From assembly GCF_009663685.2 (NCBI RefSeq), contig NZ_RCOG02000032.1, forward strand, positions 674,382 to 738,381: 64,000 nt of DNA. The letters run 5' to 3'. How positions within the stretch are numbered: position 1 is the first letter of the stretch; each line of letters opens with the position of its first letter. The translations under genes and the position numbers were made by a program. Under the pieces are notes generated by a model. It was not told where the DNA came from and made no database searches. It saw only the letters and a program-made list of their open reading frames with translations. The DNA is from Cupriavidus sp. U2 (GTDB taxonomy: Bacteria; Pseudomonadota; Gammaproteobacteria; Burkholderiales; Burkholderiaceae). Positions 51,792 through 64,000 of the stretch are shown here, in pieces.

Positions 51792-52259
51792 TCAGGCGGC
51801 GTGCAGGCTGGCGAGGTGGAGGCTCGACAGCAGGGCCAGCGCCATCTGCAGGACGATGACCATTGCGGTGCCGGGGTTGCGCAGGCAGGTTTCCACCTGT
51901 TCGCTGCGGGGCTGGCCCAGCAGGCACCACGTGCAGAAGTGCTCGCAGTTGTTGGTCAGCAGGTGGTAACGGTTCTCGCCCAGGCGGCTGCGGGCGCGCG
52001 ACACGGCTTCGGCGCCCAGGTAGCGGGCGCAGGGTTCGGACTTGGCCGTCACGCCGTGGCCGTCGGCAAACTGTTCGAGCGTGGTTTCTTCCACGGGACC
52101 AGCGTGCAGCGCGTGGCAGAAGCCGGCGTAGTGGATGACGCGGCCCTGGCCGACGTAGATGCCATGGTGCGCGTAGCCATTGCGTTCCGTCACGAGATGG
52201 GCGCCGGGCAGGTAGGCATCTTCCAGGCGGCTGACTTGTTGTTGGTCTTGGGCGTTCAT
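51792..52259 (-). CDS. LRAT-domain (NlpC/P60-like) putative acyltransferase with C-terminal membrane anchor
   Basis: A 155-aa protein of the lecithin:retinol acyltransferase-like thiol enzyme family. The catalytic set is complete: His32 in AHHGIYVG, His43 in VIHYAG and Cys105 in NNCEHFCTW. A hydrophobic helix at residues 132-150 (AMVIVLQMALALLSSLHLA) gives the same layout as vertebrate PLAAT/H-REV107 proteins, with the active domain in the cytoplasm and a C-terminal anchor. Family members transfer or remove acyl groups through a thioester. The gene is divergent from the GG-leader protein gene. A sigma-54 promoter lies 60-75 bases upstream. Its natural substrate is unknown. Confidence 0.85.
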   Translation of the reverse strand: MNAQDQQQVSRLEDAYLPGAHLVTERNGYAHHGIYVGQGRVIHYAGFCHALHAGPVEETTLEQFADGHGVTAKSEPCARYLGAEAVSRARSRLGENRYHLLTNNCEHFCTWCLLGQPRSEQVETCLRNPGTAMVIVLQMALALLSSLHLASLHAA

Positions 52260-52319
52260 GGCAGGTCTCGGTTCGGTGTCGGTGGCTGGCAGCCAGGGCT
52301 GCGTCGGTGCCTACCCAAC

Positions 52320-52335
52320 CGCATCAAGCGTGCCA
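52320..52335 (-). promoter_or_regulatory. Sigma-54 promoter of the LRAT-domain gene
   Basis: On the minus strand TGGCACGCTTGATGCG. The -24 box TGGCACG is perfect, and the -12 TGC has correct spacing with one mismatch. The predicted start site is near 52309, about 50 bases before the ATG. Confidence 0.75.
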
Positions 52336-52637
52336 GACCACCGTATCGACGGCGGGACAACGGCTGGCGGGGAATCGGCAAATTCGAATCGCGCGAATTC
52401 GTCGGCGTATGCCCAACAGCGTTGGCCGGATTGTGTTGGCGCGCGACCGGCATTGGGGTGAGGCCCGCGAGCAGCAGGACGTCAGCGCAGGGCCAACGCC
52501 TGGCGGCCGCATGCTGACGGCGCCGCCCCACCAGTTCCGGCCGGCTGTTGGCGCGTGCCCAACGCGCAATCAGGCCAATGCCTCACATGGCTCGCACAAT
52601 GGGTACGGCATGCGCCCCAATCATCACAACGGCGCCG

Positions 52638-52653
52638 TGGCACACCGTTTGCT
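52638..52653 (+). promoter_or_regulatory. Sigma-54 promoter of the GG-leader protein gene
   Basis: TGGCACACCGTTTGCT fits TGGCAC-N5-TTGCT at every consensus position. The predicted start site is near 52664, about 33 bases before the ATG at 52697. Confidence 0.85.
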
Positions 52654-52696
52654 CCTTACCGGCAGACCCTTTCGATGCCAGCCTCAGGAGACCATC

Positions 52697-52987
52697 ATGG
52701 CTACGCTCACCATCCGCGACCTGAACACCCAACGCGCACTGGATTTCCGGGCCATGTCGGCCGTGCGGGGCGGCGGCGCGCCGTGGGTGTTCGGCTGGAT
52801 CCAGCCTTATGTGGCGGCGCGCCCCAGCGCGTTACCCGTCGTGAACTTTTACGAGATCAACTACAGCTTCTATGCTGATCAGATGAACAACCAGTTCCAG
52901 AACGTGAACGTCCAGAACACGGCGCCGAATTCGAATATCACGGTCGATGCCGGCATGGACGCCCGCAACAAGGGACGGCTGGTCTGA
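52697..52987 (+). CDS. Double-glycine-leader secreted protein (candidate cargo of the C39 exporter)
   Basis: A 96-aa protein with CAGGAG seven bases before the ATG. The first 26 residues form a double-glycine leader: Gly25-Gly26, with hydrophobic residues at -4 (Val23), -7 (Met20) and -12 (Leu15) relative to the cut, the pattern read by C39 peptidases. The remaining 70 residues have no cysteine. They are aromatic at first (PWVFGWIQPY ... NFYEINYSFY) and then rich in Asn/Gln (NNQFQNVNVQNTAPNSNI). A consensus sigma-54 promoter lies directly upstream, and a C39 exporter operon with a sigma-54 activator is 5 kb away. It could be a bacteriocin-like or signalling protein. The function is inferred, but the leader is clear. 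Confidence 0.82.
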   Translation: MATLTIRDLNTQRALDFRAMSAVRGGGAPWVFGWIQPYVAARPSALPVVNFYEINYSFYADQMNNQFQNVNVQNTAPNSNITVDAGMDARNKGRLV

Positions 52988-53089
52988 GCCCTGCAGCATC
53001 CGGCAGGGCTTTCGCGGTGACTTCCAAATTCCCGGCGCCCCGGGGGCGCCATACGCGCAAGCCGGTATCGGCCCGCGCTGGAGCATGCC

Positions 53090-53869
53090 GTGACCTGCGT
53101 ATCGCAATTCCGCTGGACTTCGGCCGCCTGCACAGACGTCGGACGGGTGCGGGCACGCAATGAAGACGCCTGCCTGGCCATGCCCGAGCGCGGCATCTGG
53201 GCCGTGGCCGATGGCATGGGCGGCCACGCGGTGGGCGACTTCGCCAGCCGCGCGATCATCCAGGCGCTATCGGCGCTGCCCGAGCCCGACAGCCTCGATG
53301 GCGCCGCAGAGAGCGCGCGACTGGCCATGCAGACCGTCAACCAGTTGCTGATCGAGGAAGCGCTGCGGATGAAGGTGCGCGTGATCGGCAGCACCGTGGT
53401 GATGCTGCTGGCCTGCGAGCGCCGCTGCAGTTGCCTGTGGGCCGGGGACAGCCGGCTCTACCTGCTCCGCGACGGCCACCTGAAACAGCTGTCGCGCGAT
53501 CACAGCCAGGTGGAACGGCTCAAGGCGCGCGGGCTGATCACCGCCGACGAGGCCAAACACCATCCCGCCCACAACACCATCACGCGCGCCGTGGGTGCGG
53601 CAGCCACGCTGGATCTGGAACGGCTGACGCTGGAGATCGGCGATGGCGACGTGTTCCTGCTCTGCAGCGACGGGCTCAGCAACGAAGTCGAGGACGACCA
53701 GATCGCTGCCCTGCTGGCCCCGGGCATCGCCGATCCGGCGGCTGCCGCCGATGCATTGGTCAAGCAGGCGCTCGACAATGGCGGCCGCGACAACGTGTCG
53801 GTAGTGGTCATCCGCGCCGAGGACATCGGCGGCGGATCGGACATGACGCTGCTGAATCCGGAGGTTTGA
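53090..53869 (+). CDS. PP2C-family serine/threonine phosphatase
   Basis: A 259-aa cytoplasmic phosphatase. Metal-binding and active-site motifs are DVGRVRARNEDA, AVADGMGGH, WAGDSRLYLLR, LCSDGLSNEV and GGRDNVSVVVI. Translation starts at GTG 53090 after a GGAG site. It follows the GG-leader gene by 102 bases in the same direction and could share its sigma-54 transcript. No partner kinase is in the window. Confidence 0.9.
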   Translation: MTCVSQFRWTSAACTDVGRVRARNEDACLAMPERGIWAVADGMGGHAVGDFASRAIIQALSALPEPDSLDGAAESARLAMQTVNQLLIEEALRMKVRVIGSTVVMLLACERRCSCLWAGDSRLYLLRDGHLKQLSRDHSQVERLKARGLITADEAKHHPAHNTITRAVGAAATLDLERLTLEIGDGDVFLLCSDGLSNEVEDDQIAALLAPGIADPAAAADALVKQALDNGGRDNVSVVVIRAEDIGGGSDMTLLNPEV

Positions 53870-54033
53870 GGCAAGGCAAACGCAGCACACATTGCGGACG
53901 TTTCGCATGGCGATTCGAGAATCGTCTGTTTGTGTTATTGCGCCACGTGGGCAAGATGAGCGACAAGCGCCGCGGCATGTGTTTCGCACACACGGCGCGC
54001 AGCGCTTGCCCCTCGATGCCCGGAAACCCTGCA

Positions 54034-56670
54034 ATGCACCTGCCCGCCAGTCAGCCACGTCGCGTCACCCGAGCATGTATTGTCGCAACGGCGCTATGCA
54101 CGCTCATCGCGACAGCCTTCACGCATGCCGCGCCACCGCGCATGTACTACTCCGCGTACCCGATCGGCGTATATTTCGACACACCGCAAGAAGCCTGCGA
54201 CAACCTGAACAACCACCTCTACGCCTCAGATTTCTGGAGATACGACGACGCTGACCGTCAGTGCATCCACGCTACAGGCTCCTTTCATGTTGGTGGGCGC
54301 CTTCGTTGCGCTCCCGATGCATCCGAGCCCGGGCTCGATATCGGCCCCGAAGACCAAAGATGTGGAGGGCCGTTCTTCTGGGCCGGCAGCACACCCGTTC
54401 GCGACATCGAAGACGAAAGCTGCCCGCTGGGCAATCCCGTCGCCGTCGGCACCGGAGTCAAAACCCAGAAAGAACTTGACATTCCGGGTACGGAGCACGT
54501 GCCGGCGCTCGAACGGACGTACCGGTCCGAGGTCCGTTTCGCGGCGGCCGACGGCTTCGGTCCGAATTGGACGCACCAATGGAACCGGCAGATTCAGAAT
54601 CCCGGAGTGTCACCCGATTCGATCTCGGTACTGCGTGGTGATGGCTCTGCCCGAACTTTTCAGAAATCCGAAACCGGCTGGATCGCGGTGAGTGGACGCG
54701 ACGCGATAACGCTGACATCAGGAACGAATGGAAGTATTGGTTGGCGATACTTCAATGCCACTGACCATTCCTTCGAAACCTACGACGCCCGGGGTCGCCT
54801 GCTACATATCGTGGCACGCAACGGCAGAACTATCACGCTGACTTATGGCGAAGGCGGACAGCTTTCACGCGTGGAAAATCACTTCAAACAAAGCTACACC
54901 TTCCAGTACGACACAGCCGGACGTATCGCTTCGATCACCGATCCAACGAACCGCACGACGCGATATGAGTACAACCCATGGGGCATGCTCGCCGTCGTGG
55001 TGCATCCCGATGGCACGCGGCGCACGTACCATTACGAGAATTCGCCATACCGATCGATATGGACTCATCAGCTGACCGGCATTACTGACGAAGCCGGGGT
55101 CCGCTATTCCACCTATGAGTACGACGCCCAAGGACGCATCAAGAGCACCGAGCGGGCGGGCGGCGTTGACCGGGTCACGTTGGTATATCTCAGCGAACTG
55201 GAGACTGCACGGACTTTCCCCTACGGCTCTCCAGCCACGTTATACCGACAGATTCGTATTGGAAATCGACTGCGCCCCGCGTCGATCGAGGGCCCACCCC
55301 CGGAAGCAGGCGGTACGAAATTTATCGTGTACGACGCGACGGGAAACGTTGCACGCACCGTAGATTTCGAAGACCGGGAAACGCAGTACACGTATGACCA
55401 GCAAGGTCGCGAGACGCAGCGTATCGAAAACCCGGGTCTACCGGATAAACAAGTGACCTCAACGGAATGGCATACCGGCTGGAATTTGCCGACGCGAATC
55501 GCCAGGCCGAATCGCGTGGACACCATCGAGTACGACAGCGTTGGACAACCCATTCTGCATACCTGGTTCGCAACCGCAGACGCAACTGGCGAAATGGGCT
55601 ACGGGGCACCACGGGTTGACGCCATAGCGAGCGTTGCGTGGACCTACGATCACAACGGCTTGCTGACCAGCCTGACTGGACGGGAAGACACTCGAATCGT
55701 GGACCGGTGGACTTTCTCGTACGACGCACAGGGCAACCTCGCGACGGCAACCGACGTCAACCGCCGCACCTCCCGCGCCTTGGCGTACGATGGCGCGGGA
55801 CGGTTGCTTGAGGCCATCGACCTGAACGGGATCCGACTGAAATACGTCTATGACGCGCGCGCCCGCCCTGTGGCGTATCACTACGGAGCCAATCTCACAA
55901 CGTACGCGTACGACGCCATTGGCCAATTGACGCGGCAGACCGGCCCACATGGCCGTGAGACCCACTACAAGTACGACGCGGCGCACCGGCTGGTGGATGT
56001 TCAGGAGAACGGCTCGAGCTTGGTCGGCAGCGATCCCTTCATTGAACCCGGCGCGGTAGATCATACCGATCCAGCCGCGGACAATGTGGGCGCAAATCCG
56101 TTTGATCGTTGGTTCGGGTGGCTGACCAGGATCTTCACATGGCTGTTCAGCCCGGCGCAGGCTCAGGCAGTCCCCGTGCCACCCCAGCCGCACGTGCTGG
56201 GCGCCGCCACATCGGTGCCAGACACCTACACGCCATCGCCTTGGGACAACCTGGCGTACGGGACGGGATCCAGGCGTCCTTGGGAGTGGCTTGTTATCTG
56301 GACACAACGGATAGTCAATATTTGTACCGGAAAAAGTAAGCGGGAAGAGCACCGAGGCCGTATTCACGCACAGGGTGTCGACTATCCAAACGCAGGGATT
56401 GGCGATGCGGAAGCTTGGGCTCAGGCTCATCCCTTGCCTGTAGTGGCCGGCCTGGTGAAGTTGGACGCGGTCGTAGCCCGAATGACAAAAAGGCAATATC
56501 ACAACCGTACCCAGGCAATTGATCGAGCGCGCAAATATATGATTGACTCAGCGAACGCGGGCGGGATAGGTCAAAGAAAACGGACCTTTCACAATGACAA
56601 AATCAGAAACGCCGGCGGCTCAGAGCGCGTCGACATAGACGTTCTATCCGGACGGGCATTCATACCATAG
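54034..56670 (+). CDS. Sec-exported Rhs/YD-repeat protein with putative C-terminal toxin domain
   Basis: An 878-aa protein. A signal peptide (RRVTRACIVATALCTLIATAFTHA, cut near residue 32) is followed by a DUF6531-like N-domain (CPLGNPVAVGTGVKTQKELDI, about residues 135-155) and many YD repeats (YDARGRL, YDTAGRI, YDAQGRI, YDQQGRE, YDAIGQL; about 230-660). After a hydrophobic linker (FDRWFGWLTRIFTWLFS) comes a unique C-terminal domain (about 770-878) ending RVDIDVLSGRAF. That domain resembles, from memory, polymorphic toxin type 34. The usual Rhs shell-closing motif (YDPxxGRFxxxDP) is missing. A small immunity-like gene follows after nine bases. The start at 54034 is chosen for the signal peptide. 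Base composition is lower in GC than the flanks. Confidence 0.85.
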   Translation: MHLPASQPRRVTRACIVATALCTLIATAFTHAAPPRMYYSAYPIGVYFDTPQEACDNLNNHLYASDFWRYDDADRQCIHATGSFHVGGRLRCAPDASEPGLDIGPEDQRCGGPFFWAGSTPVRDIEDESCPLGNPVAVGTGVKTQKELDIPGTEHVPALERTYRSEVRFAAADGFGPNWTHQWNRQIQNPGVSPDSISVLRGDGSARTFQKSETGWIAVSGRDAITLTSGTNGSIGWRYFNATDHSFETYDARGRLLHIVARNGRTITLTYGEGGQLSRVENHFKQSYTFQYDTAGRIASITDPTNRTTRYEYNPWGMLAVVVHPDGTRRTYHYENSPYRSIWTHQLTGITDEAGVRYSTYEYDAQGRIKSTERAGGVDRVTLVYLSELETARTFPYGSPATLYRQIRIGNRLRPASIEGPPPEAGGTKFIVYDATGNVARTVDFEDRETQYTYDQQGRETQRIENPGLPDKQVTSTEWHTGWNLPTRIARPNRVDTIEYDSVGQPILHTWFATADATGEMGYGAPRVDAIASVAWTYDHNGLLTSLTGREDTRIVDRWTFSYDAQGNLATATDVNRRTSRALAYDGAGRLLEAIDLNGIRLKYVYDARARPVAYHYGANLTTYAYDAIGQLTRQTGPHGRETHYKYDAAHRLVDVQENGSSLVGSDPFIEPGAVDHTDPAADNVGANPFDRWFGWLTRIFTWLFSPAQAQAVPVPPQPHVLGAATSVPDTYTPSPWDNLAYGTGSRRPWEWLVIWTQRIVNICTGKSKREEHRGRIHAQGVDYPNAGIGDAEAWAQAHPLPVVAGLVKLDAVVARMTKRQYHNRTQAIDRARKYMIDSANAGGIGQRKRTFHNDKIRNAGGSERVDIDVLSGRAFIP

Positions 56671-56679
56671 GTTACCGGC

Positions 56680-56928
56680 ATGCGCACTATCTATGAGATC
56701 TGGGAAGCCATCGCCGAGAGCGATGGTTGTAGTCAGATTGCGTTACTCCGAAAGGGCGAGATAGAGAAGGAGGCCTTGCTTTTCGAAGGGAAGCCGCGAT
56801 TGCTCAAGACATTCGAAGCCAACAGCTACAACGAGGCTTGCCAAGCCTATAACGACTTCTTCGGCTGGGGGAAATATCACCCGATGGATGACGATCTGGG
56901 AGACTGCAATGGTGACGAAAATCTATGA
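56680..56928 (+). CDS. Probable immunity protein for the Rhs toxin
   Basis: An 82-aa acidic soluble protein, starting nine bases after the Rhs stop codon. It has no signal peptide, an N-terminus IYEIWEAIAESDG and a C-terminus GWGKYHPMDDDL. Small size, acidity, lower GC and position directly after the toxin tip are the usual signs of a cognate immunity gene. I do not recognise the family. A decayed second copy overlaps its end. Confidence 0.7.
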   Translation: MRTIYEIWEAIAESDGCSQIALLRKGEIEKEALLFEGKPRLLKTFEANSYNEACQAYNDFFGWGKYHPMDDDLGDCNGDENL

Positions 56929-57002
56929 AATCCGGGACGACTTCCTGAGCGGGGAAAAAATACCATCCGATGAAGGAGGATCTGGAGGGGGGCAATGACT
57001 GA
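56909..57002 (+). pseudogene. Truncated, frameshifted second copy of the immunity gene
   Basis: ATG 56909, with GGGAG six bases upstream, opens MVTKIYEIRDDF, matching the start of the 82-aa protein (IYEIWEA). After the run GGGGAAAAAA the +1 frame reads KKYHPMKEDLEGGND then stop (57000-57002), matching GKYHPMDDDLGDCN of the intact gene. About 50 middle codons are missing. Read in one frame it makes only 29 residues. It is a remnant of a duplicated or swapped immunity gene. Confidence 0.75.
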
Positions 57003-57055
57003 AAAAGCCCGGCATCCGCAAATCCCTCCCTCGCCGATCGTCTGATCGCCCCGCC

Positions 57056-58378
57056 CTACTTCCCATCCGCCTGCCGGTTGTTCCGGAAATCCTTCGAGTG
57101 GATGCCGTGCTTCTTCAGCAGCATCTGGATGTGCGACCGGTTCATGTCGAAGCGGCGCGCCAATTCGGCCACGGTTCCCCCGACTTCCTGCAGCCCGCGT
57201 TCCAGGAAGGCCCTTTCGGCCTCGTCGCTGGCGGCGCGCTTGGCCTCGCTGAGCGATGTGGCCGTGCTCAGGTCGGTTACCGTTGCCTTGCCGCCCGCGG
57301 CTGCCACGGCCTGCAGCCCGGTCGGCCTGGGGCGGATGTCCTGGGGCAGATGGGCGAAATCGGCCGTGTCGCCGGCCAGGCATGACAGCCGGTACATCAG
57401 GTTGCGCAGTTCGCGGATATTGCCCGGATACTCGTAGTGCAGCAGGAAGTCGCGCAGCCGGGGCGTCAGCTTCAGCGGCCGCCGCTTGAGCTGGCCGGCC
57501 GCCTCGTCGCCGAAGTAGGCCACCAGCAGCGGGATTTCGTCGCGCCGTTCGCGCAGGGCCGGCAGCGTCACGTGGATCACGCTGAGCCGGTAGAACAGGT
57601 CTTCGCGGAACGTGCCCTCCTGGCTCATCCGGCGCAGGTCCTTGTTGGTGGCCGCGACGATGCGCGTATCGACGGCGATCACCTCGTCCGAGCCCACCCG
57701 CTGGATCTCGTGCGCCTCCAGCACGCGCAGCAGCTTCACCTGCCCGGTCAGCGGCAATTCCCCGATCTCGTCCAGGAAGATGGTGCCCGTATGCGCGCTC
57801 TCGAACTTGCCGCGCCGGTCGTTGGCCGCGCCGGTGAACGCGCCCTTCTTGTGGCCGAACAGTTCCGATTCGAGCAGGCTGTCAGGAATCGCGCCGCAGT
57901 TGACCGAGATGAACGGCTTGTCGTTGCGCAGGCCGTTGGCATGGATCACCTTGGCCATCAGCTCCTTGCCGGTGCCGCTTTCGCCGTCGATCAGCACGGG
58001 CAGGTCGGTCGGCGCAGCCTTCTCGGCGATTTCCAGCGATTCGAGCAGCCTGGGGTTGTCGCCGAACGTGCCCTCGAAGATAAAGCTTCGCTCCATCAGC
58101 GCCTGCCGCCGCTCGCGGGACGACATCTCCACCGGCTCGACCACTGCCTCGTCGGCCCCCGCCTCGCCCGTGGCCGACGCCGCCGCCACAAAGCGTTCCT
58201 TGTGCGACAGGCCCATGACCTCGTCGCGCAGTGTGGTGGCCTGCTTGAGCAGCTTCTCGATGTCGGGCCGCTCCAGCCGCGACGACCAGCGCAGCGTGGA
58301 GCGCAGGATCTCGATCCGCTCGATCAGGCCGGCGAACGATACGGCCGAAGTGACGGGGGTGGGGTTGTATAGCTTCAT
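57056..58378 (-). CDS. Sigma-54-dependent transcriptional activator (AAA+ / Fis-type HTH)
   Basis: A 440-aa activator. The N-terminal 100 residues have no recognised sensor and no receiver domain. The AAA+ domain (about 105-340) has Walker A GESGTGKE, the sigma-54 contact loop GAFTGA, Walker B FLDEIGELP and the arginine-finger region REDLFYRLSV. A Fis-type HTH (TVAELARRFDMNRSHIQMLLKKHG) ends it. The ATG at 58378 overlaps the exporter's TGA, so it is the last gene of the hlyD-ppi-exporter operon. It is the obvious candidate to drive the two sigma-54 promoters near 52.3-52.65 kb. Confidence 0.92.
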   Translation of the reverse strand: MKLYNPTPVTSAVSFAGLIERIEILRSTLRWSSRLERPDIEKLLKQATTLRDEVMGLSHKERFVAAASATGEAGADEAVVEPVEMSSRERRQALMERSFIFEGTFGDNPRLLESLEIAEKAAPTDLPVLIDGESGTGKELMAKVIHANGLRNDKPFISVNCGAIPDSLLESELFGHKKGAFTGAANDRRGKFESAHTGTIFLDEIGELPLTGQVKLLRVLEAHEIQRVGSDEVIAVDTRIVAATNKDLRRMSQEGTFREDLFYRLSVIHVTLPALRERRDEIPLLVAYFGDEAAGQLKRRPLKLTPRLRDFLLHYEYPGNIRELRNLMYRLSCLAGDTADFAHLPQDIRPRPTGLQAVAAAGGKATVTDLSTATSLSEAKRAASDEAERAFLERGLQEVGGTVAELARRFDMNRSHIQMLLKKHGIHSKDFRNNRQADGK

Positions 58379-61300
58379 GCCGCGCTCAACTGCTTCTGGA
58401 CCAACTGGTAGTACATGCCGCGCCGTTCCAGCAGTTCCTCGTGCCGCCCCTGCTCCACGATGCCGCCTTCGTACAGCACCAGGATCTTGTCGGCCTGCAT
58501 GATGGTGCTGAGCCGGTGCGCGATGATCACGGCCGTGCGGCCCTTCAGGATCTCCTGCATATTGGCCAGGATGTTGCTCTCCGACTGCGTGTCCAGCGCC
58601 GACGTGGCCTCGTCGAACACCAGCAGCCGCGGGTCGTGATACAGCGCCCGGGCGATGCACAGCCGCTGGATCTGCCCGCCCGACAGCCCGATGCCGCGCT
58701 CGCCAACCACCTGCTCGTAGCCGAGCGGCAGCTTCGAGATGAACGCGTGGGCGTCGGCCATCTTGGCCACTTCCTCGATGCGGCGCCGGTCCGGGCTGTC
58801 GTCCCCGCAGGCAATGTTCTCGGCCACCGTGCCCGAGAACAGCAGGTTGGTCTGCATCACATACCCCACCTGGGCACGGAAGAACTCGGTGTCGATCACG
58901 TTCATGTCATAGCCGTCCACCTTCATGGTGCCGTCGGTTGGCTTGTAGAAGCCCACCAGCAGCTTGGCCAGCGTGGTCTTGCCTGACCCGCTGCGCCCGA
59001 CGATGGCAACCATCTCGCCCGGCCGCATATGGAAGCTGATGTTCTCCAGCACGTAGGCGGTGTCCTCGCCGCCATAGCGGAAGTACACGCCGTCGAACTG
59101 GATCTCGCCCTGCAGGTCGGGCAGCGACACGCGCGACATCACGTCCTGCGGCTTCTGCTCCGGGTCCAGGTCCAGCACGTCGCCGAGCCGCTCCATCGCC
59201 ACGCCGGCATCGTTGAGCTGGCCCCACAGCGCCACCAGCCCCATCAGCGGCGCCAGCACGCTGCCCATGAAGGCGTTGAACGCGATCAGCTGCCCGATCG
59301 TCAGCTCGCGCTCCAGCACCAGCGTGGCGCCCACCCAGAGGATCGTGATGGTGGTGGCCGCGTTCAGCACCTGGCTGACCAGCCCCACCAGGATATGGAA
59401 CGATTGCGCCTGGTACTGCTTGTCCAGCGCCTTGGCGTACTTGCGCTCCCAGCGCAGCCGCACCGGGCGTTCGATCCCCATGCCCTTCACGGTCTCCGCG
59501 CCGCCCAGCGTTTCCATCAGGTAGGCCTTGGCATCGGTCGACGCCGCGAACACCTCGCGCGCGTAGCCCTTCACCTTGGGCGTGACCACCACGGTCAGCG
59601 CGGCAATCGGGATCACGAACGCAATCAGCAGCAGCGTCAGCTTCACGTTGTAGAGGAACATGATGCTGAAGTAGATGAACACCATCAGCAGGTTCAGCGC
59701 CGTGGTGACCGTGGACTCCGTCAGGAACGCGCGGATGGTCTGGTTTTCCTGGAAGCGCGCGAAGATGTCGCCGGTCTTGCGCTTGGCAAAGAACGACAGC
59801 GGCAGCGACAGCGTGTGCTTGAAGAAGTGCGACATCATCGCGAAATCCATGTTGCGGACCATGAAGTTCGCCAGGTACGCGCGGATGGTGACCATCAGCT
59901 GCGTGAACACGTTCGAGATCACCAGCCCCAGGATCAGCAGGTGAAGCAGCCCGATGTTCTGGTGCACCACCACGCCGTCGAGGATGTTCTGGATGATCAG
60001 CGGCGGCACCACGCCCAGCACCTGGATCACGAACGTGGCCAGGAACAGATGCGCCAGGATGCGCTTGTACGGCGACAGGTAGCCGATGAAGCGCAGCCAC
60101 GGCGAGCGCGACACCGCCAGTTCGTTCATCTGCGTACCGGGCGAGAACAGCAGGCAGGTGCCGCTCCAGCCGCGCTCGAACTCCTCGGCGCTCATCTTGC
60201 GGAAGCCGATGGCCGGGTCCGCCACCCACACGTACTGCGACGACACGCCGTAGACCACCACGTAGTGGTAGCCCTCCCAGTGGATGATGAACGGCAGTTC
60301 GAAGCCGGTCAGCGCATCGCGCGTGCATTGCACGCCGCGCGTGGTGAAGCCCAGCGATTCGCCCGCCCGCGCCAGGCTGTCGAGCGTGGCGCCGGCGGTG
60401 GTCACATTGGCCAGTTCGCGCAACTTGCCCAGCGTCATGGGGATGCCATAGTGGCGGCAGATCATCGCCAGGCAGGCGGCACCGCAATCCATCTCCTCGG
60501 CCTGCTCGACCAGCGCGAAGCGACGGATCAGCCGTTCGCCCAGCGCGGGCTTCGAATGCAGGTCCAGCAGCACCGGCCGCTTGCGGCGCTCGGCGAGCTT
60601 CTTCTGCCGGTGCAATTCCCGATCCACGGTGCGGATGCGCTCTTCCAGCACCTCGCGCAGCCGCGCGTTGCGCTCCAGGATCAACTGCACCGTCTTCTCC
60701 GGGATCACCAGCAGCCGCGTGTCGGTCTCGGCAATGGCCGAGGCAATCTGCTCCTGGCGCATCACGCAGGCGCGCTCGCCGAAGATTTCGCCCTGTCCCA
60801 GCGTGGCAAGCTGGAACGTGTCGCCGTCCTCCTCGCGCACGATGCGCACCGTGCCCTGGCGCACCACATACAGACGCCGGTCCTCGCGCCCGTCCTGCTG
60901 CAGGATTTCCTTGCCTGCCGCCACCCGCTTGACGCCCACGCTGCGCACGGCGTCTTCCAGCTCCAGCTTGTCGAGCTTGCCGCGCAGGTCGAACAGCCGC
61001 GCCACGAAGCCCCCCGCCGAACTGATGGCCACGTAGCTGGTGATAAAGGCCAGCGCGGCCGGGTTGCCGCCCACCGTCGGCTCGGCAACGGCGCGCGGTA
61101 TCGTGATCAGCTCGGTCTTGCCCGATGCCCGCACCGACGACTCGTGCCGGTACTCGCGCAGCAGCGCAATATCGGCAAACACTTCGCCGGTCTTGCGCAC
61201 GCCCATGCTGATTTCCTTGCCATGCTCCTCGTTGAACACGCGCACGGAGCCGCTGCGCACGATGAAAATGCCGTCCGCCGGCTCGCCCGCATTGCAGACC

Positions 61301-61482
61301 GTGTCGCCAAAGCCGAAATGCAGCGTGCGGGCGCTGGCGGCCAGCCGCTCGATCTCGTCGCGCGACAACGGCGACAGGATCTCCACCGTGGCCAGGAAGT
61401 CGGCCAGCGACTGTCCGGCGGGCGGCGCGGGGGCGGCGGCAGCGGCCGGCGCCGCCACCTCGCTAGCGGGCTTCGATGACAT
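58375..61482 (-). CDS. Peptidase-containing ABC exporter with two cNMP-binding-like domains (C39-TM-NBD)
   Basis: A 1035-aa inner-membrane protein. Two cNMP-binding-like domains (about residues 35-150 and 180-275) come first. A C39 peptidase (about 325-455) has a full catalytic set: Gln327, Cys333 in MDCGAACL, His406 in EGYHYVVV and Asp422 in VADPAIG. A six-helix membrane domain (about 475-760) and an ATPase domain follow (Walker A GRSGSGKTT, signature IGLSGGQIQRL, Walker B LLVFDEATSAL). It should cut double-glycine leaders and export the cargo with HlyD. It overlaps the isomerase gene upstream and the activator downstream. The N-terminal cNMP-like domains suggest export gated by a small ligand. 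Confidence 0.93.
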   Translation of the reverse strand: MSSKPASEVAAPAAAAAPAPPAGQSLADFLATVEILSPLSRDEIERLAASARTLHFGFGDTVCNAGEPADGIFIVRSGSVRVFNEEHGKEISMGVRKTGEVFADIALLREYRHESSVRASGKTELITIPRAVAEPTVGGNPAALAFITSYVAISSAGGFVARLFDLRGKLDKLELEDAVRSVGVKRVAAGKEILQQDGREDRRLYVVRQGTVRIVREEDGDTFQLATLGQGEIFGERACVMRQEQIASAIAETDTRLLVIPEKTVQLILERNARLREVLEERIRTVDRELHRQKKLAERRKRPVLLDLHSKPALGERLIRRFALVEQAEEMDCGAACLAMICRHYGIPMTLGKLRELANVTTAGATLDSLARAGESLGFTTRGVQCTRDALTGFELPFIIHWEGYHYVVVYGVSSQYVWVADPAIGFRKMSAEEFERGWSGTCLLFSPGTQMNELAVSRSPWLRFIGYLSPYKRILAHLFLATFVIQVLGVVPPLIIQNILDGVVVHQNIGLLHLLILGLVISNVFTQLMVTIRAYLANFMVRNMDFAMMSHFFKHTLSLPLSFFAKRKTGDIFARFQENQTIRAFLTESTVTTALNLLMVFIYFSIMFLYNVKLTLLLIAFVIPIAALTVVVTPKVKGYAREVFAASTDAKAYLMETLGGAETVKGMGIERPVRLRWERKYAKALDKQYQAQSFHILVGLVSQVLNAATTITILWVGATLVLERELTIGQLIAFNAFMGSVLAPLMGLVALWGQLNDAGVAMERLGDVLDLDPEQKPQDVMSRVSLPDLQGEIQFDGVYFRYGGEDTAYVLENISFHMRPGEMVAIVGRSGSGKTTLAKLLVGFYKPTDGTMKVDGYDMNVIDTEFFRAQVGYVMQTNLLFSGTVAENIACGDDSPDRRRIEEVAKMADAHAFISKLPLGYEQVVGERGIGLSGGQIQRLCIARALYHDPRLLVFDEATSALDTQSESNILANMQEILKGRTAVIIAHRLSTIMQADKILVLYEGGIVEQGRHEELLERRGMYYQLVQKQLSAA

Positions 61483-62215
61483 GTTCCTGCGCCCTGGCCA
61501 TCAGCCATTCCTCGCGGAGCAGCCGGCGGATCTCCACGGTCACGTCGGGGTCCAGCCGGGCCGGATGCTTGGCGCGCACCAGGAAGACCTCGAAGAACGA
61601 CTTGTCCGGCGCCGGAAACGGCCCCAGCAGGTCACCGGCTTCGGCGTTGAACACCTTGGCCTCGATGTCGCCCTTGAGCGATCCGCGCAGCACCTTGCCG
61701 ATGTCGCCCCCCTGCTCGCGCGTATCGGCGATCGAATGCTCGCGCGCCATCTCGGCAAACGCGTCGGGATCGTCCTGCAGGTACGACACCAGTTCCTTCG
61801 CCTTGCCCTCGGTGTCCACCACGATATGGCTGACCTCGATGCTGTCGAACTTCGGTGAATTGAGCTGGAAGTACGACTCCACCGCCTGGTCCGTGCACAC
61901 CTGCTCCATCATCTTTTCCTGGTACAGGCTGTCGGTGATGAAGTTCTCGAACTCGTCCAGCGTGATGTTCAGCGCGTCGAGGTAGTGGTTCATGTCTGCC
62001 GCCCGGTGCAGGCCATGCACGCGGCGGAACTGGTCGGCGCGCTCCTGCACTTCCTCAGGCGTCAGCTTCAGGCCCTGGCGCCGCGCCGCGTGGGCGGTCA
62101 GCTTGTCCCGCACCAGTTGCTCCACCAGGCCTTCGAACTGGCCGGTCAGCTTCAGGACCCTCACGAATTCGTCGACGCCGATCACTTCTTCGTCGATGCG
62201 TACGATGGCTGTCAT
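61463..62215 (-). CDS. Parvulin-type peptidyl-prolyl isomerase (PpiC/SurA-like)
   Basis: A 250-aa protein without signal peptide, so probably cytoplasmic. The N-terminal helical region (about 1-115) is SurA/trigger-like, and the parvulin domain (about 120-220) includes VSHIVVDTEGKAKELV, REQGGDIGKVLRGSL and FNAEAGDLLGPF. GGAGAGG precedes ATG 62215, and its end overlaps the exporter start by about 20 bases. It probably keeps the cargo or its leader in an export-ready form. Isomerase genes of this kind accompany cNMP-domain C39 exporters in other bacteria, as I recall. Confidence 0.88.
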   Translation of the reverse strand: MTAIVRIDEEVIGVDEFVRVLKLTGQFEGLVEQLVRDKLTAHAARRQGLKLTPEEVQERADQFRRVHGLHRAADMNHYLDALNITLDEFENFITDSLYQEKMMEQVCTDQAVESYFQLNSPKFDSIEVSHIVVDTEGKAKELVSYLQDDPDAFAEMAREHSIADTREQGGDIGKVLRGSLKGDIEAKVFNAEAGDLLGPFPAPDKSFFEVFLVRAKHPARLDPDVTVEIRRLLREEWLMARAQEHVIEAR

Positions 62216-62232
62216 CGCCCTCTCCTCCACGT

Positions 62233-63615
62233 TCAACCCGCGACCTGCCTGAATGGATCGAGCCCCAGGTCGATCAGGCGCCTTTCCCGCACCACGATCT
62301 CCGCCGTGGCGGTCATGCCGTAGCGCAACGGATACTTGTTGCTGGCCACGCTGTAGTAGTCCTGCGCCAGCCGCACGCGGCCCTCGTACACCGGCTGCTT
62401 GTCGGGGCCCGACGGCTTGGTGGCCGGCGAGATGTATTCGAGCGTGCCCGCGATCAGGCCGTACCGCTGGTACGGAAACGCGCTGAACTTGAGCTTGACC
62501 GGCAGCCCCTCGCGCAGGAAGGCACGGTCGCGTTCGGCAATCTCGATGCGCAGCATCGGCCGGGCATCCTTGGGCGCGATGCCGCCCAGCGGCGTATTGG
62601 CCTGCACCTTGTCGCCACGCTGGGTGGACGTCACATCGGTAATCACGCCCGACACCGGCGCCAGGATCAGCAGGAAGTTGTCCTTGTCGATGTTCTCGAA
62701 CTTGATGCGTGCGGCGGCATCGGCCACCAGCCGGGCCGTCTGCACCTGCAGCCGCAGCTTGTCCTCGGTGCTGGTGATCTCGCGCACGGCGGCGTCGTAC
62801 TGCACGCGCAGGCTGGCCAGTTCCTGGCCGCTGCCTTCCAGCTGCGCGCTGGCCTGCGTGAATTCCTGCGCCAGCCGCGCGTCCAGTTCGGCCAGCCGCG
62901 ACTGCGCCACGCGCAGGGTGTTCTCGGCCTCCTGCGTGGCCGCGCGCTTGGCCTCGACCTGCGATTGCGACACCCCGCCGCCGGCGGGCAACGCGAACAG
63001 CCGCGCATAGCGGTCCTGCTCCTGGCGTGCGAATTCCCGTGCGCGGCGCGCGTTTTCCAGATTGCTGCGCGCCTCGGCCAACTGCGCGCGCTGCTGCTCG
63101 GCCAGCCGCGTCGTGCCTTCGGCCAGGCGGTTCTCGTGCTGGCGCGAATTGAGTTCGATCTGCTGCTTCAGCGCCAGCGCGCGGCGCTCCAGCAAGGCCT
63201 TGCGCTCGGGAAACTGCTTCCACTCGCGTTCGGCGTCTTCGAGCTTGAGCTGGGCCTGCAGCGCATTGGCCGCCGCCTCGATGGCGCCGCGCGCGTTGAG
63301 CCGCGCCACCACGTCGTCCTTCGACACCGGCTGGCCCTCGGCCACGTAGAGATCGACCAGCTCCCCATCGACCGGCGCATAGAAGCGCCGCACCTCGGAC
63401 TCCGGCGCCAGCGTGCCCTGCGCAGTCACGATCACGTCGGCGTGGCCGAAGAACGACCACAGCAGCGCGCACAGCACCAGCACGCCCGTGGTCACCACGG
63501 CCAGCAGCGTCAGCCGGCGCGGCTCGGCGCTGAGCAGCGCGATGCCTTCGGCGCTATGGTCTTCCAGCGCCTCGGTCAGCGGCCGCAGCCTGTTGTCGCG
63601 GTTCTCGTCCTTCAT
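62233..63615 (-). CDS. HlyD-family periplasmic adaptor of the exporter
   Basis: A 460-aa membrane-fusion protein that links the ABC exporter to an outer-membrane channel. A cytoplasmic N-terminus and one hydrophobic helix (LAVVTTGVLVLCALLWSFFG, about residues 37-56) precede the barrel-sandwich half-motif GELVDLYVAEGQPV. A long coiled-coil hairpin follows (about 110-270), then the second half PVSGVITDVTSTQRGDKV. The C-terminal KYPLRYGMTATAEIVVRER is the HlyD signature. Its ATG overlaps the stop of the upstream gene as ATGA. Confidence 0.92.
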   Translation of the reverse strand: MKDENRDNRLRPLTEALEDHSAEGIALLSAEPRRLTLLAVVTTGVLVLCALLWSFFGHADVIVTAQGTLAPESEVRRFYAPVDGELVDLYVAEGQPVSKDDVVARLNARGAIEAAANALQAQLKLEDAEREWKQFPERKALLERRALALKQQIELNSRQHENRLAEGTTRLAEQQRAQLAEARSNLENARRAREFARQEQDRYARLFALPAGGGVSQSQVEAKRAATQEAENTLRVAQSRLAELDARLAQEFTQASAQLEGSGQELASLRVQYDAAVREITSTEDKLRLQVQTARLVADAAARIKFENIDKDNFLLILAPVSGVITDVTSTQRGDKVQANTPLGGIAPKDARPMLRIEIAERDRAFLREGLPVKLKFSAFPYQRYGLIAGTLEYISPATKPSGPDKQPVYEGRVRLAQDYYSVASNKYPLRYGMTATAEIVVRERRLIDLGLDPFRQVAG

Positions 63616-64000
63616 GGCGTACTCCCCGCTTCGGGCTTCACGGCGGCGGCGGTGGCCGCGGTCCCGGCCGGCGCGGCCTTGCCGTCCTTGCCCCCGCCGT
63701 CCTTGCCTTCGTCCTTGCCGCCCTCCTTGCTGCCCTCGCCCACCAGCGCCAGCTTGGCCTTGAGCACCGCCGGGTCCAGCACCATGCGCAGGTCATTGAG
63801 CGACCGGCGCTGGGTGTCGACTTCGGCCTGGATGTCGTCACGGATCTTGCTCCACTGCGCCGAATCCTCGATCTTCAGCTGGGCATAGATGCGCAGCCCC
63901 TTGCGCGCATCGTCCTGGGCATCGGCCAGCAGCCGGGCCTGCGAGCGGAACTTGGCCGAAATACCCGATTCCAGCCGTTGTTCGCCGGCAATCAGGCCGC
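63612..64000 (-). CDS. C-terminal part of an unidentified coiled-coil protein (gene runs past the window end)
   Basis: The last 129 residues of a gene read to the edge of the window. The visible part is a helical coiled-coil (ARLLADAQDDARKGLRIYAQLKI ... RSLNDLRMVLDPAVLKAKLAL) followed by a Lys/Gly/Asp-rich tail (KEGGKDEGKDGGGKDGK) and an Ala/Pro end. Its TGA overlaps the hlyD ATG, so it belongs to the same operon. It might be a TolC-like outer-membrane channel, a second adaptor or an operon-specific factor. The sequence shown does not decide this. Confidence 0.6.
   Translation of the reverse strand, partial: GLIAGEQRLESGISAKFRSQARLLADAQDDARKGLRIYAQLKIEDSAQWSKIRDDIQAEVDTQRRSLNDLRMVLDPAVLKAKLALVGEGSKEGGKDEGKDGGGKDGKAAPAGTAATAAAVKPEAGSTP

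Follow-up and report, generated by a model that had tools for sequence, protein, structure and literature searches.

A 437-bp gap (52260-52696) in the DNA of Cupriavidus sp. U2, from which an LRAT-domain gene (minus strand) and a 96-aa frame (plus strand) diverge, appears to hold two divergent sigma-54 promoters with paired-dyad enhancers, at which a 440-aa activator would drive the LRAT gene, the peptide gene and further exported peptides. We assign this reading a probability of about 0.8, on the strength of sequence comparison. The promoters and the enhancer pairs are very likely real, and the local activator is likely the common regulator of both promoters, as judged from its co-occurrence with the peptide and from its position. 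The length of the gap agrees with that given in an earlier note on this DNA; the window referred to below is the whole 64-kb stretch of 64,000 nucleotides that was analysed. Comparison of related loci finds the promoters, the dyads and their pairing conserved, with helical spacing between enhancer and promoter and with co-occurrence of activator and peptide. The features are collected in Table 1. A scan of 52200-53100 found neither sigma-70 promoters nor terminators.

Table 1. Features of the divergent gap and of the neighbouring genes in the window
Feature	Position	Strand	Basis
LRAT-domain gene, 155 aa, divergent target	51792..52259	-	Pfam LRAT, E 6.6e-24
9/10 dyad GTCGGTGCCTACCCAAC, expected start site of the minus transcript, possible operator	52303..52319	.	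dyad scoring
Minus sigma-54 promoter TGGCACGCTTGATGCG, -24/-12	52320..52335	-	104 of 137 LRAT-bearing loci, strict or relaxed pattern
Putative minus enhancer, proximal dyad GTCGGCGTATGCCCAAC, 9/10, 82 bp from promoter start	52401..52417	.	dyad scoring and comparison
Putative minus enhancer, distal dyad GTTGGCGCGCGACCGGC, 8/10, 34 bp from partner	52435..52451	.	dyad scoring and comparison
Extra dyad GTCAGCGCAGGGCCAAC, 8/10, present only in some close relatives	52481..52497	.	dyad scoring
Putative plus enhancer, weak distal dyad GACGGCGCCGCCCCACC, 7/10 by eye, 31 bp from partner	52516..52532	.	stronger in other loci
Putative plus enhancer, proximal dyad GTTGGCGCGTGCCCAAC, 10/10, 91 bp from promoter start	52547..52563	.	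dyad scoring and comparison
Plus sigma-54 promoter TGGCACACCGTTTGCT	52638..52653	+	153 of 156 distinct loci
96-aa peptide gene, double-glycine-type leader (..AMSAVRGGG/APWVFGWIQPY..)	52697..52987	+	frame and leader motif
PP2C-type phosphatase	53090..53869	+	domain match
440-aa sigma-54 activator (bEBP), proposed activator of both promoters	57056..58378	-	AAA+ with GAFTGA, C-terminal HTH
ABC exporter, peptidase C39 and cyclic-nucleotide-binding domains	58375..61482	-	domain match
PpiC-type isomerase	61463..62215	-	domain match
HlyD-type adaptor	62233..63615	-	domain match

The peptide was searched for in 60 genomes of the genus, and the best 30 loci were examined for the minus promoter. A set of 80 loci out of a larger match list covers Cupriavidus, Paraburkholderia, Burkholderia, Caballeronia, one Ralstonia record, one Burkholderiaceae bacterium and one Aromatoleum. 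From 210 loci, 156 distinct upstream regions were retained, and the minus promoter was analysed in the 137 of these in which LRAT was recognised upstream of the peptide by a short motif. The loci share kinship, and counts across them are not independent.

The plus promoter, TGGCACACCGTTTGCT, is the sole exact match to TGGCACN5TTGCW in the window, and TGGCAYN5TTGCW occurs 19 times in the genome against once in the backwards control, which together make the site a strong sigma-54 candidate. It carries the GG and GC dinucleotides 10 bp apart in the TGGCAY-N5-TTGC context, and the fit to the full -24/-12 consensus described in the earlier note is exact. Some of the genomic sites are followed by frames that we take, by eye and from their translations, to be pilin-like, DctA-like and transporter-like; rpoN is present in one copy. 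In 153 of the 156 distinct loci the same small peptide gene has a sigma-54 promoter no more than 190 bp away, against 0 of 156 in control windows at -800 to -610 and 2 of 156 inside and past the peptide start. It is likewise present in 79 of the 80 loci of the named-species set, and its -24 element reads CGGCA in genus g9 and a few others. Of the three loci without it (L114, L117 and L219), two have a peptide match that starts inside the gene (L114 and L117), and L114 gains a site if another start is chosen. We also note that in L219 (2145-2560, Aromatoleum diolicum) the peptide relative is preceded by one or more other leader-type peptides and lacks a sigma-54 promoter of its own by the pattern used.

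The minus promoter, TGGCACGCTTGATGCG (52335-52320), has two mismatches to TGGCACN5TTGCW, a T to A change in the -12 box and a G as the last W. The attempt to validate it by consensus counting inside the window failed, in that sites with at most two mismatches number 31 against 40.5 expected from shuffles, so the site is not significant by consensus alone. Among relatives the minus promoter was found in 104 of the 137 LRAT-bearing loci, 58 by the strict pattern and 46 by the relaxed pattern only (mainly TGGCCC), compared with 0 strict and 3 relaxed matches of 137 in backwards controls. The GG and GC dinucleotides and their spacing are retained, as in sigma-54 promoters, and the -12 box is ATGC rather than TTGC. 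This is the single core mismatch that had been reported for the site, and it is conserved across the relatives: ATGC is present in 104 of 105 minus matches counted from the listing, and GATGC in 102, although the pattern allowed A, C or T, which marks the mismatch as an old, kept feature. No minus promoter was recognised in 33 of the 137 LRAT loci, of which genus g9 contributes 25; one of the 33, L134, has TGGCAA..GATGCA. Within the best 30 peptide loci, the minus promoter is present in 24, and the six without it (L043, L044, L046-L049) all lack the LRAT motif, yet a seventh locus of these 30 without the motif, L039, has kept it. Strict matches occur in four of the 19 loci without LRAT motif (L039, L135, L131 and L104); the match is of the usual GATGC kind in L039 and L135, is TGGCACAGCCCATGCA in L131, and appears unrelated in L104.

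To describe the enhancers, 17-mers were scored against GTTGG-N7-CCAAC (10 positions), and the GTTGG/CCAAC words on which the earlier note had based its enhancer-like elements proved to be halves of a dyad. The conserved unit is GTYGG-N7-CCAAC, a dyad of 17 bp. Most copies form pairs with a spacing of 31-34 bp, and a promoter usually has one such pair. Both elements named at the outset are present, and the one at 52547-52563 is a conserved dyad, whereas the palindrome at 52413-52425 is incidental. The latter, the 13-bp CCAACAGCGTTGG (CCAAC-N3-GTTGG), was rejected as a conserved unit, its GTTGG at 52421 being absent in the nearest relatives (L021-L025). The CCAAC of CCAACAGCGTTGG belongs to GTCGG-N7-CCAAC at 52401-52417, the partner of which is GTTGG-N7-CCGGC at 52435-52451. 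The repeat of TGTTGGCGCG at 52434 and 52546 is also present as described, and alone it is compatible with chance. Shuffle means are 0.39 for GTTGG-N7-CCAAC, 0.50 for CCAAC-N3-GTTGG and 0.55 for TGTTGGCGCG, each of them compatible with chance, and single palindromes were not validated as stand-alone proof in the window. The densest cluster found is a 300-bp stretch with 7 of the window's 117 GTTGG/CCAAC words.

Counts inside the window are weak alone; it is the comparison that decides, and it points to conservation of the promoters and the main dyads. The gaps, 58.3 kb in all, contain 225 dyads of at least 9/10. The flanks contain none in 59.9 kb on the LRAT side and one in the 87.8 kb that begin at the peptide start, and first-order shuffling of the gap sequences yields 0.04 such dyads per kb. 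Averaged over 125 loci, the dyad match is highest 32-33 bp upstream of the plus proximal site; on the minus side, the average over 102 promoters has its maxima at distances of 81-82 and 115-116 bp from the minus promoter. The best distal partner is 31-33 bp off in 105 of the 125 loci and scores mostly 6-8 of 10, so the second dyad is often weak; the plus distal dyad of the window (7/10) is weak as well. In L139 a dyad pair is situated inside the LRAT frame as called. A genome-wide search for the dyad, in line with a check proposed earlier, gave no excess: GTYGG-N7-CCRAC occurs 33 times, and its backwards control 45 times. The motif by itself therefore does not allow further members of the regulon to be listed. 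Dyad pairs do occur at other peptide promoters of the locus. The genome-wide search for CCAAC 62-92 bp before a sigma-54 site gave 5 matches against 4 in the control, and two of the five are the promoters studied here. In 28 longer loci, a dyad pair with a total of at least 14 accompanies 45 of 46 sigma-54 promoters before leader-type peptides, a sample that includes plus promoters of the studied kind and some loci from the same or close genomes, compared with 21 of 400 random windows. The sole promoter of the 46 without a pair belongs to L127 and lies where the stretch taken ends.

The spacing was analysed in 125 loci with one unambiguous best site of at least 9/10 each. The distances from the plus promoter to this site fall into groups with means of 79.4, 91.4, 102.9, 114.9, 125.1, 135.0, 145.9 and 158.0 bp, the last three comprising 2, 11 and 2 loci, and one further locus is at 182. 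The best period of the distances is 11.2 bp with a vector length of 0.75. The rule 80 + 11.4n, which was picked with the data in view, accounts for 110 of the 125 to within 2 bp, against 44% by chance. No such period is observed to the start codon, either from the site (0.14) or from the promoter (0.18). The period strength is 0.38 from promoter to promoter and 0.62 from the plus site to the minus promoter (83 loci with one minus promoter each), and the latter value is a warning that kinship contributes. Parsimony on the peptide-gene tree gives 57 distance changes, 19 of them of at least 5 bp; a tree test against uniform changes, which rests on these 19, yields P 0.0008 for a period of 11.2 bp, or 0.010 when the best period between 8 and 14 bp is taken. 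An alignment of L043 to L047 and L048 matches the dyad pair together with its flank and places the gap, of about 12 bp, in the loop. This case is explained by a loop deletion, and half-site turnover (half-sites are 12 bp apart) was rejected as the source of its ~11-bp step, an explanation that covers the comparison of L043 with L047/L048 alone. The outliers at 110, 143, 160 and 182 bp may be mis-picked, and the one at 143 (L034) is the far member of a pair. Stepwise distances of upstream pairs, in helical phase, are as expected of a looping enhancer, as far as comparison can tell.

The earlier note regarded the elements as symmetrical repeats serving both promoters. The element is indeed common to both, but each promoter normally has a pair of its own, and a shared pair was seen in loci of the C. 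plantarum/C. pampae type. One clear pair, 33 bp apart, is located between the promoters in C. plantarum (L034/L153), C. pampae (L035/L154) and a relative (L033), and the promoters are closer together in these loci than in most. In L033, L034 and L035, respectively, the dyad nearer to the minus promoter is 91, 126 and 103 bp from it, and the dyad nearer to the plus promoter is 90, 110 and 113 bp from that one. These distances are near the same helical series, 110 fitting least well, and the clade would provide a natural case of one enhancer for two promoters.

The 440-aa protein matches the AAA+ family PF00158 (Sigma54_activat, E 1e-69), and its GAFTGA loop, the hallmark of a bEBP AAA+ domain, is invariant in 22 orthologues. 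The C-terminal HTH has helices in residues 376-437, with a block-mean pLDDT of 77-88 for 381-430 in an AlphaFold model of low overall confidence (mean pLDDT 49.7), and the recognition-helix region MNRSH-QMLLKKHG is invariant except one position in the 22 aligned orthologues. About 100 N-terminal residues are without Pfam match and give no receiver-domain match at E 0.01; the sequence thus does not suggest an NtrC-type response regulator. These first 100 residues were found once per genome in 50 of the 60 genus genomes, and in 155 of the 398 family genomes drawn (8 of 25 genera). The peptide is present in 49 of the 60 genus genomes, all among the 50 with the activator; two of the 49, G023 and G033, are counted only on weak partial matches far from the activator gene. 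In L121 (G050) the activator is present with no recognisable peptide in the 11 kb beside it. In L076 (G046, 691-1800) the activator frame ends early, at 369 aa and without the usual C-terminal HTH, owing to either a sequencing error or a broken gene. The earlier suggestion of one activator working both ways gains support from the same paired dyad at both promoters, from the same element before other peptide promoters and from the co-occurrence of activator and peptide, from which we infer binding.

The activator need not be the local one. The genome has 21 activator-domain matches above the family cut-off and 16 above 200 bits, and hence 15 other likely activators, any of which, or a regulator that is not an EBP, could bind the dyads at genuine sigma-54 promoters while the 440-aa activator acts elsewhere. 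We regard this as unlikely in view of the near-perfect co-occurrence of activator and peptide in the 60 genus genomes, the concentration of dyad pairs at the promoters of the locus, and the conservation of the HTH of the 440-aa activator where the dyads are. The dyads might also be thought of as repressor operators, with activation by an activator that is bound elsewhere or not bound to DNA. Sites like the 52303-52319 dyad, scoring 8-9/10, are seen by eye in many loci 33-38 bp beyond the minus promoter start, which is the expected start of the transcript and a typical repressor position, and the 52303-52319 dyad is possibly a feedback operator on the LRAT gene. For the main pairs such a role is very improbable, as their location ~80-160 bp upstream, their helical steps and their three-turn pairing fit an enhancer and have no obvious reason in a repressor.

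We likewise give very little credence to the view that only the plus promoter works in this strain and that the minus promoter is a weak relic owing to its ATGC box. The departure from TTGC and a consensus score not above chance in the window speak for it; the retention of ATGC in 104 of 105 matches, where the pattern also permitted T or C, speaks against it, as does the joint absence of minus promoter and dyad pair in genus loci without LRAT.

The peptide itself has no match in Pfam, NCBIfam or PHROGs, and its AlphaFold mean pLDDT is 41.9. It has a double-glycine leader ending in GG/GA with a C39-domain exporter nearby, and the peptides would be cut and exported by this C39 ABC exporter. The exporter scores 560 bits with TIGR03796, below the cut-off of 853.3, and is not assigned to the NHLP/NHLM bacteriocin type. 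Beyond the window are an FHA protein, an outer-membrane efflux protein, an FGE-type protein and a protein kinase, together with two further promoters of leader-type peptides, at L065 5050 (minus strand) and 10400 (plus strand), each with a dyad pair. More short leader-type frames follow the first peptide of the 10400 promoter on the same strand (L065 10497-11812), which suggests a peptide array. Across window 53090-63998 and L065 94-10582, an FHA protein, a Ser/Thr protein kinase and a PP2C phosphatase accompany the type I peptide exporter; this signalling trio is better known from type VI secretion. The phosphatase and activator genes are separated by a large frame at ~54088-56670, YD/RHS-like by eye. 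This frame is possibly a local insertion, since the peptide is only ~2-2.7 kb from the N-terminal end of the activator in several other loci.

In the mechanism favoured here, the gap would consist of two back-to-back sigma-54 promoters with an enhancer each, made of two 17-bp dyads that are separated by about three helical turns, with the nearer of the two ~80-90 bp upstream. The 440-aa activator, whose gene is ~4 kb away, would bind the dyad pairs via its C-terminal helix-turn-helix, form an AAA+ oligomer and reach the promoter-bound sigma-54 polymerase by DNA looping, so that transcription would be switched on in both directions together, to the left into the LRAT gene and to the right into the leader-peptide gene. 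The same activator would drive at least two further peptide promoters beyond the window. One of these, at L065 5050, probably starts an operon running through the TolC-like, FHA, HlyD, PpiC and ABC genes to the activator, an order deduced from orientation, and exporter, cargo and activator would then rise together. A single-sequence guess has thereby become a testable regulon with a defined candidate binding site, a candidate activator and four promoters in one locus, and it bears on when a family of probably exported, uncharacterised peptides is made.

A broader picture can be drawn tentatively, at somewhat less than even odds. It would be a so far undescribed sigma-54 regulon, in at least eight genera of the Burkholderia-Cupriavidus family, that is dedicated to a type I peptide exporter with phospho-signalling through FHA, Ser/Thr kinase and PP2C proteins. 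The enhancers of the regulon would act as a natural helical ruler with about eight registers; in the C. plantarum/C. pampae clade a single pair would serve both promoters in register, and the dyad at the LRAT start would feed back.

The locus and the regulon were not found in the open-access literature, a weak absence with subscription papers mostly outside that scope, and several known systems resemble it in part. The NtrC enhancer of E. coli glnAp2 has two dyads about three turns apart, ~100-140 bp upstream. The likeness lies in paired dyads at this separation upstream of the promoter; in contrast, NtrC carries a receiver domain and recognises a different site sequence, and no divergent sigma-54 gene is known there. 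In E. coli hyc/hyp, divergent sigma-54 promoters are activated by FhlA, so that two divergent operons share one activator as proposed here, with a different activator family, different sites and different genes. Systems of double-glycine peptides with C39 ABC exporters (PCAT) similarly have short GG-leader peptides near a C39-domain exporter, whereas the present exporter has cNMP domains and PpiC, FHA, kinase and phosphatase partners, is apparently under sigma-54 control, and is accompanied by a peptide without a family-model match. The closest parallel in spacing is the LuxO-qrr system of Vibrio, in which the natural loop lengths of 61 enhancers, from ~80 to ~120 bp, are reported to cluster in ~11-bp steps (PMC4740811). 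Tandem activator sites, a sigma-54 promoter and distance steps of ~11 bp are common to both systems. The present system differs in its divergent promoters, its dyad and its peptide-export genes, and it extends to eight distance groups from ~79 to 158 bp, to another bacterial family and to the variant with one pair for two promoters. The control mechanism is therefore classical and the full-turn spacing rule is already known from Vibrio qrr; the distances in the Cupriavidus-type loci are a second natural case for the rule that enhancer loops tolerate full-turn, but not half-turn, changes.
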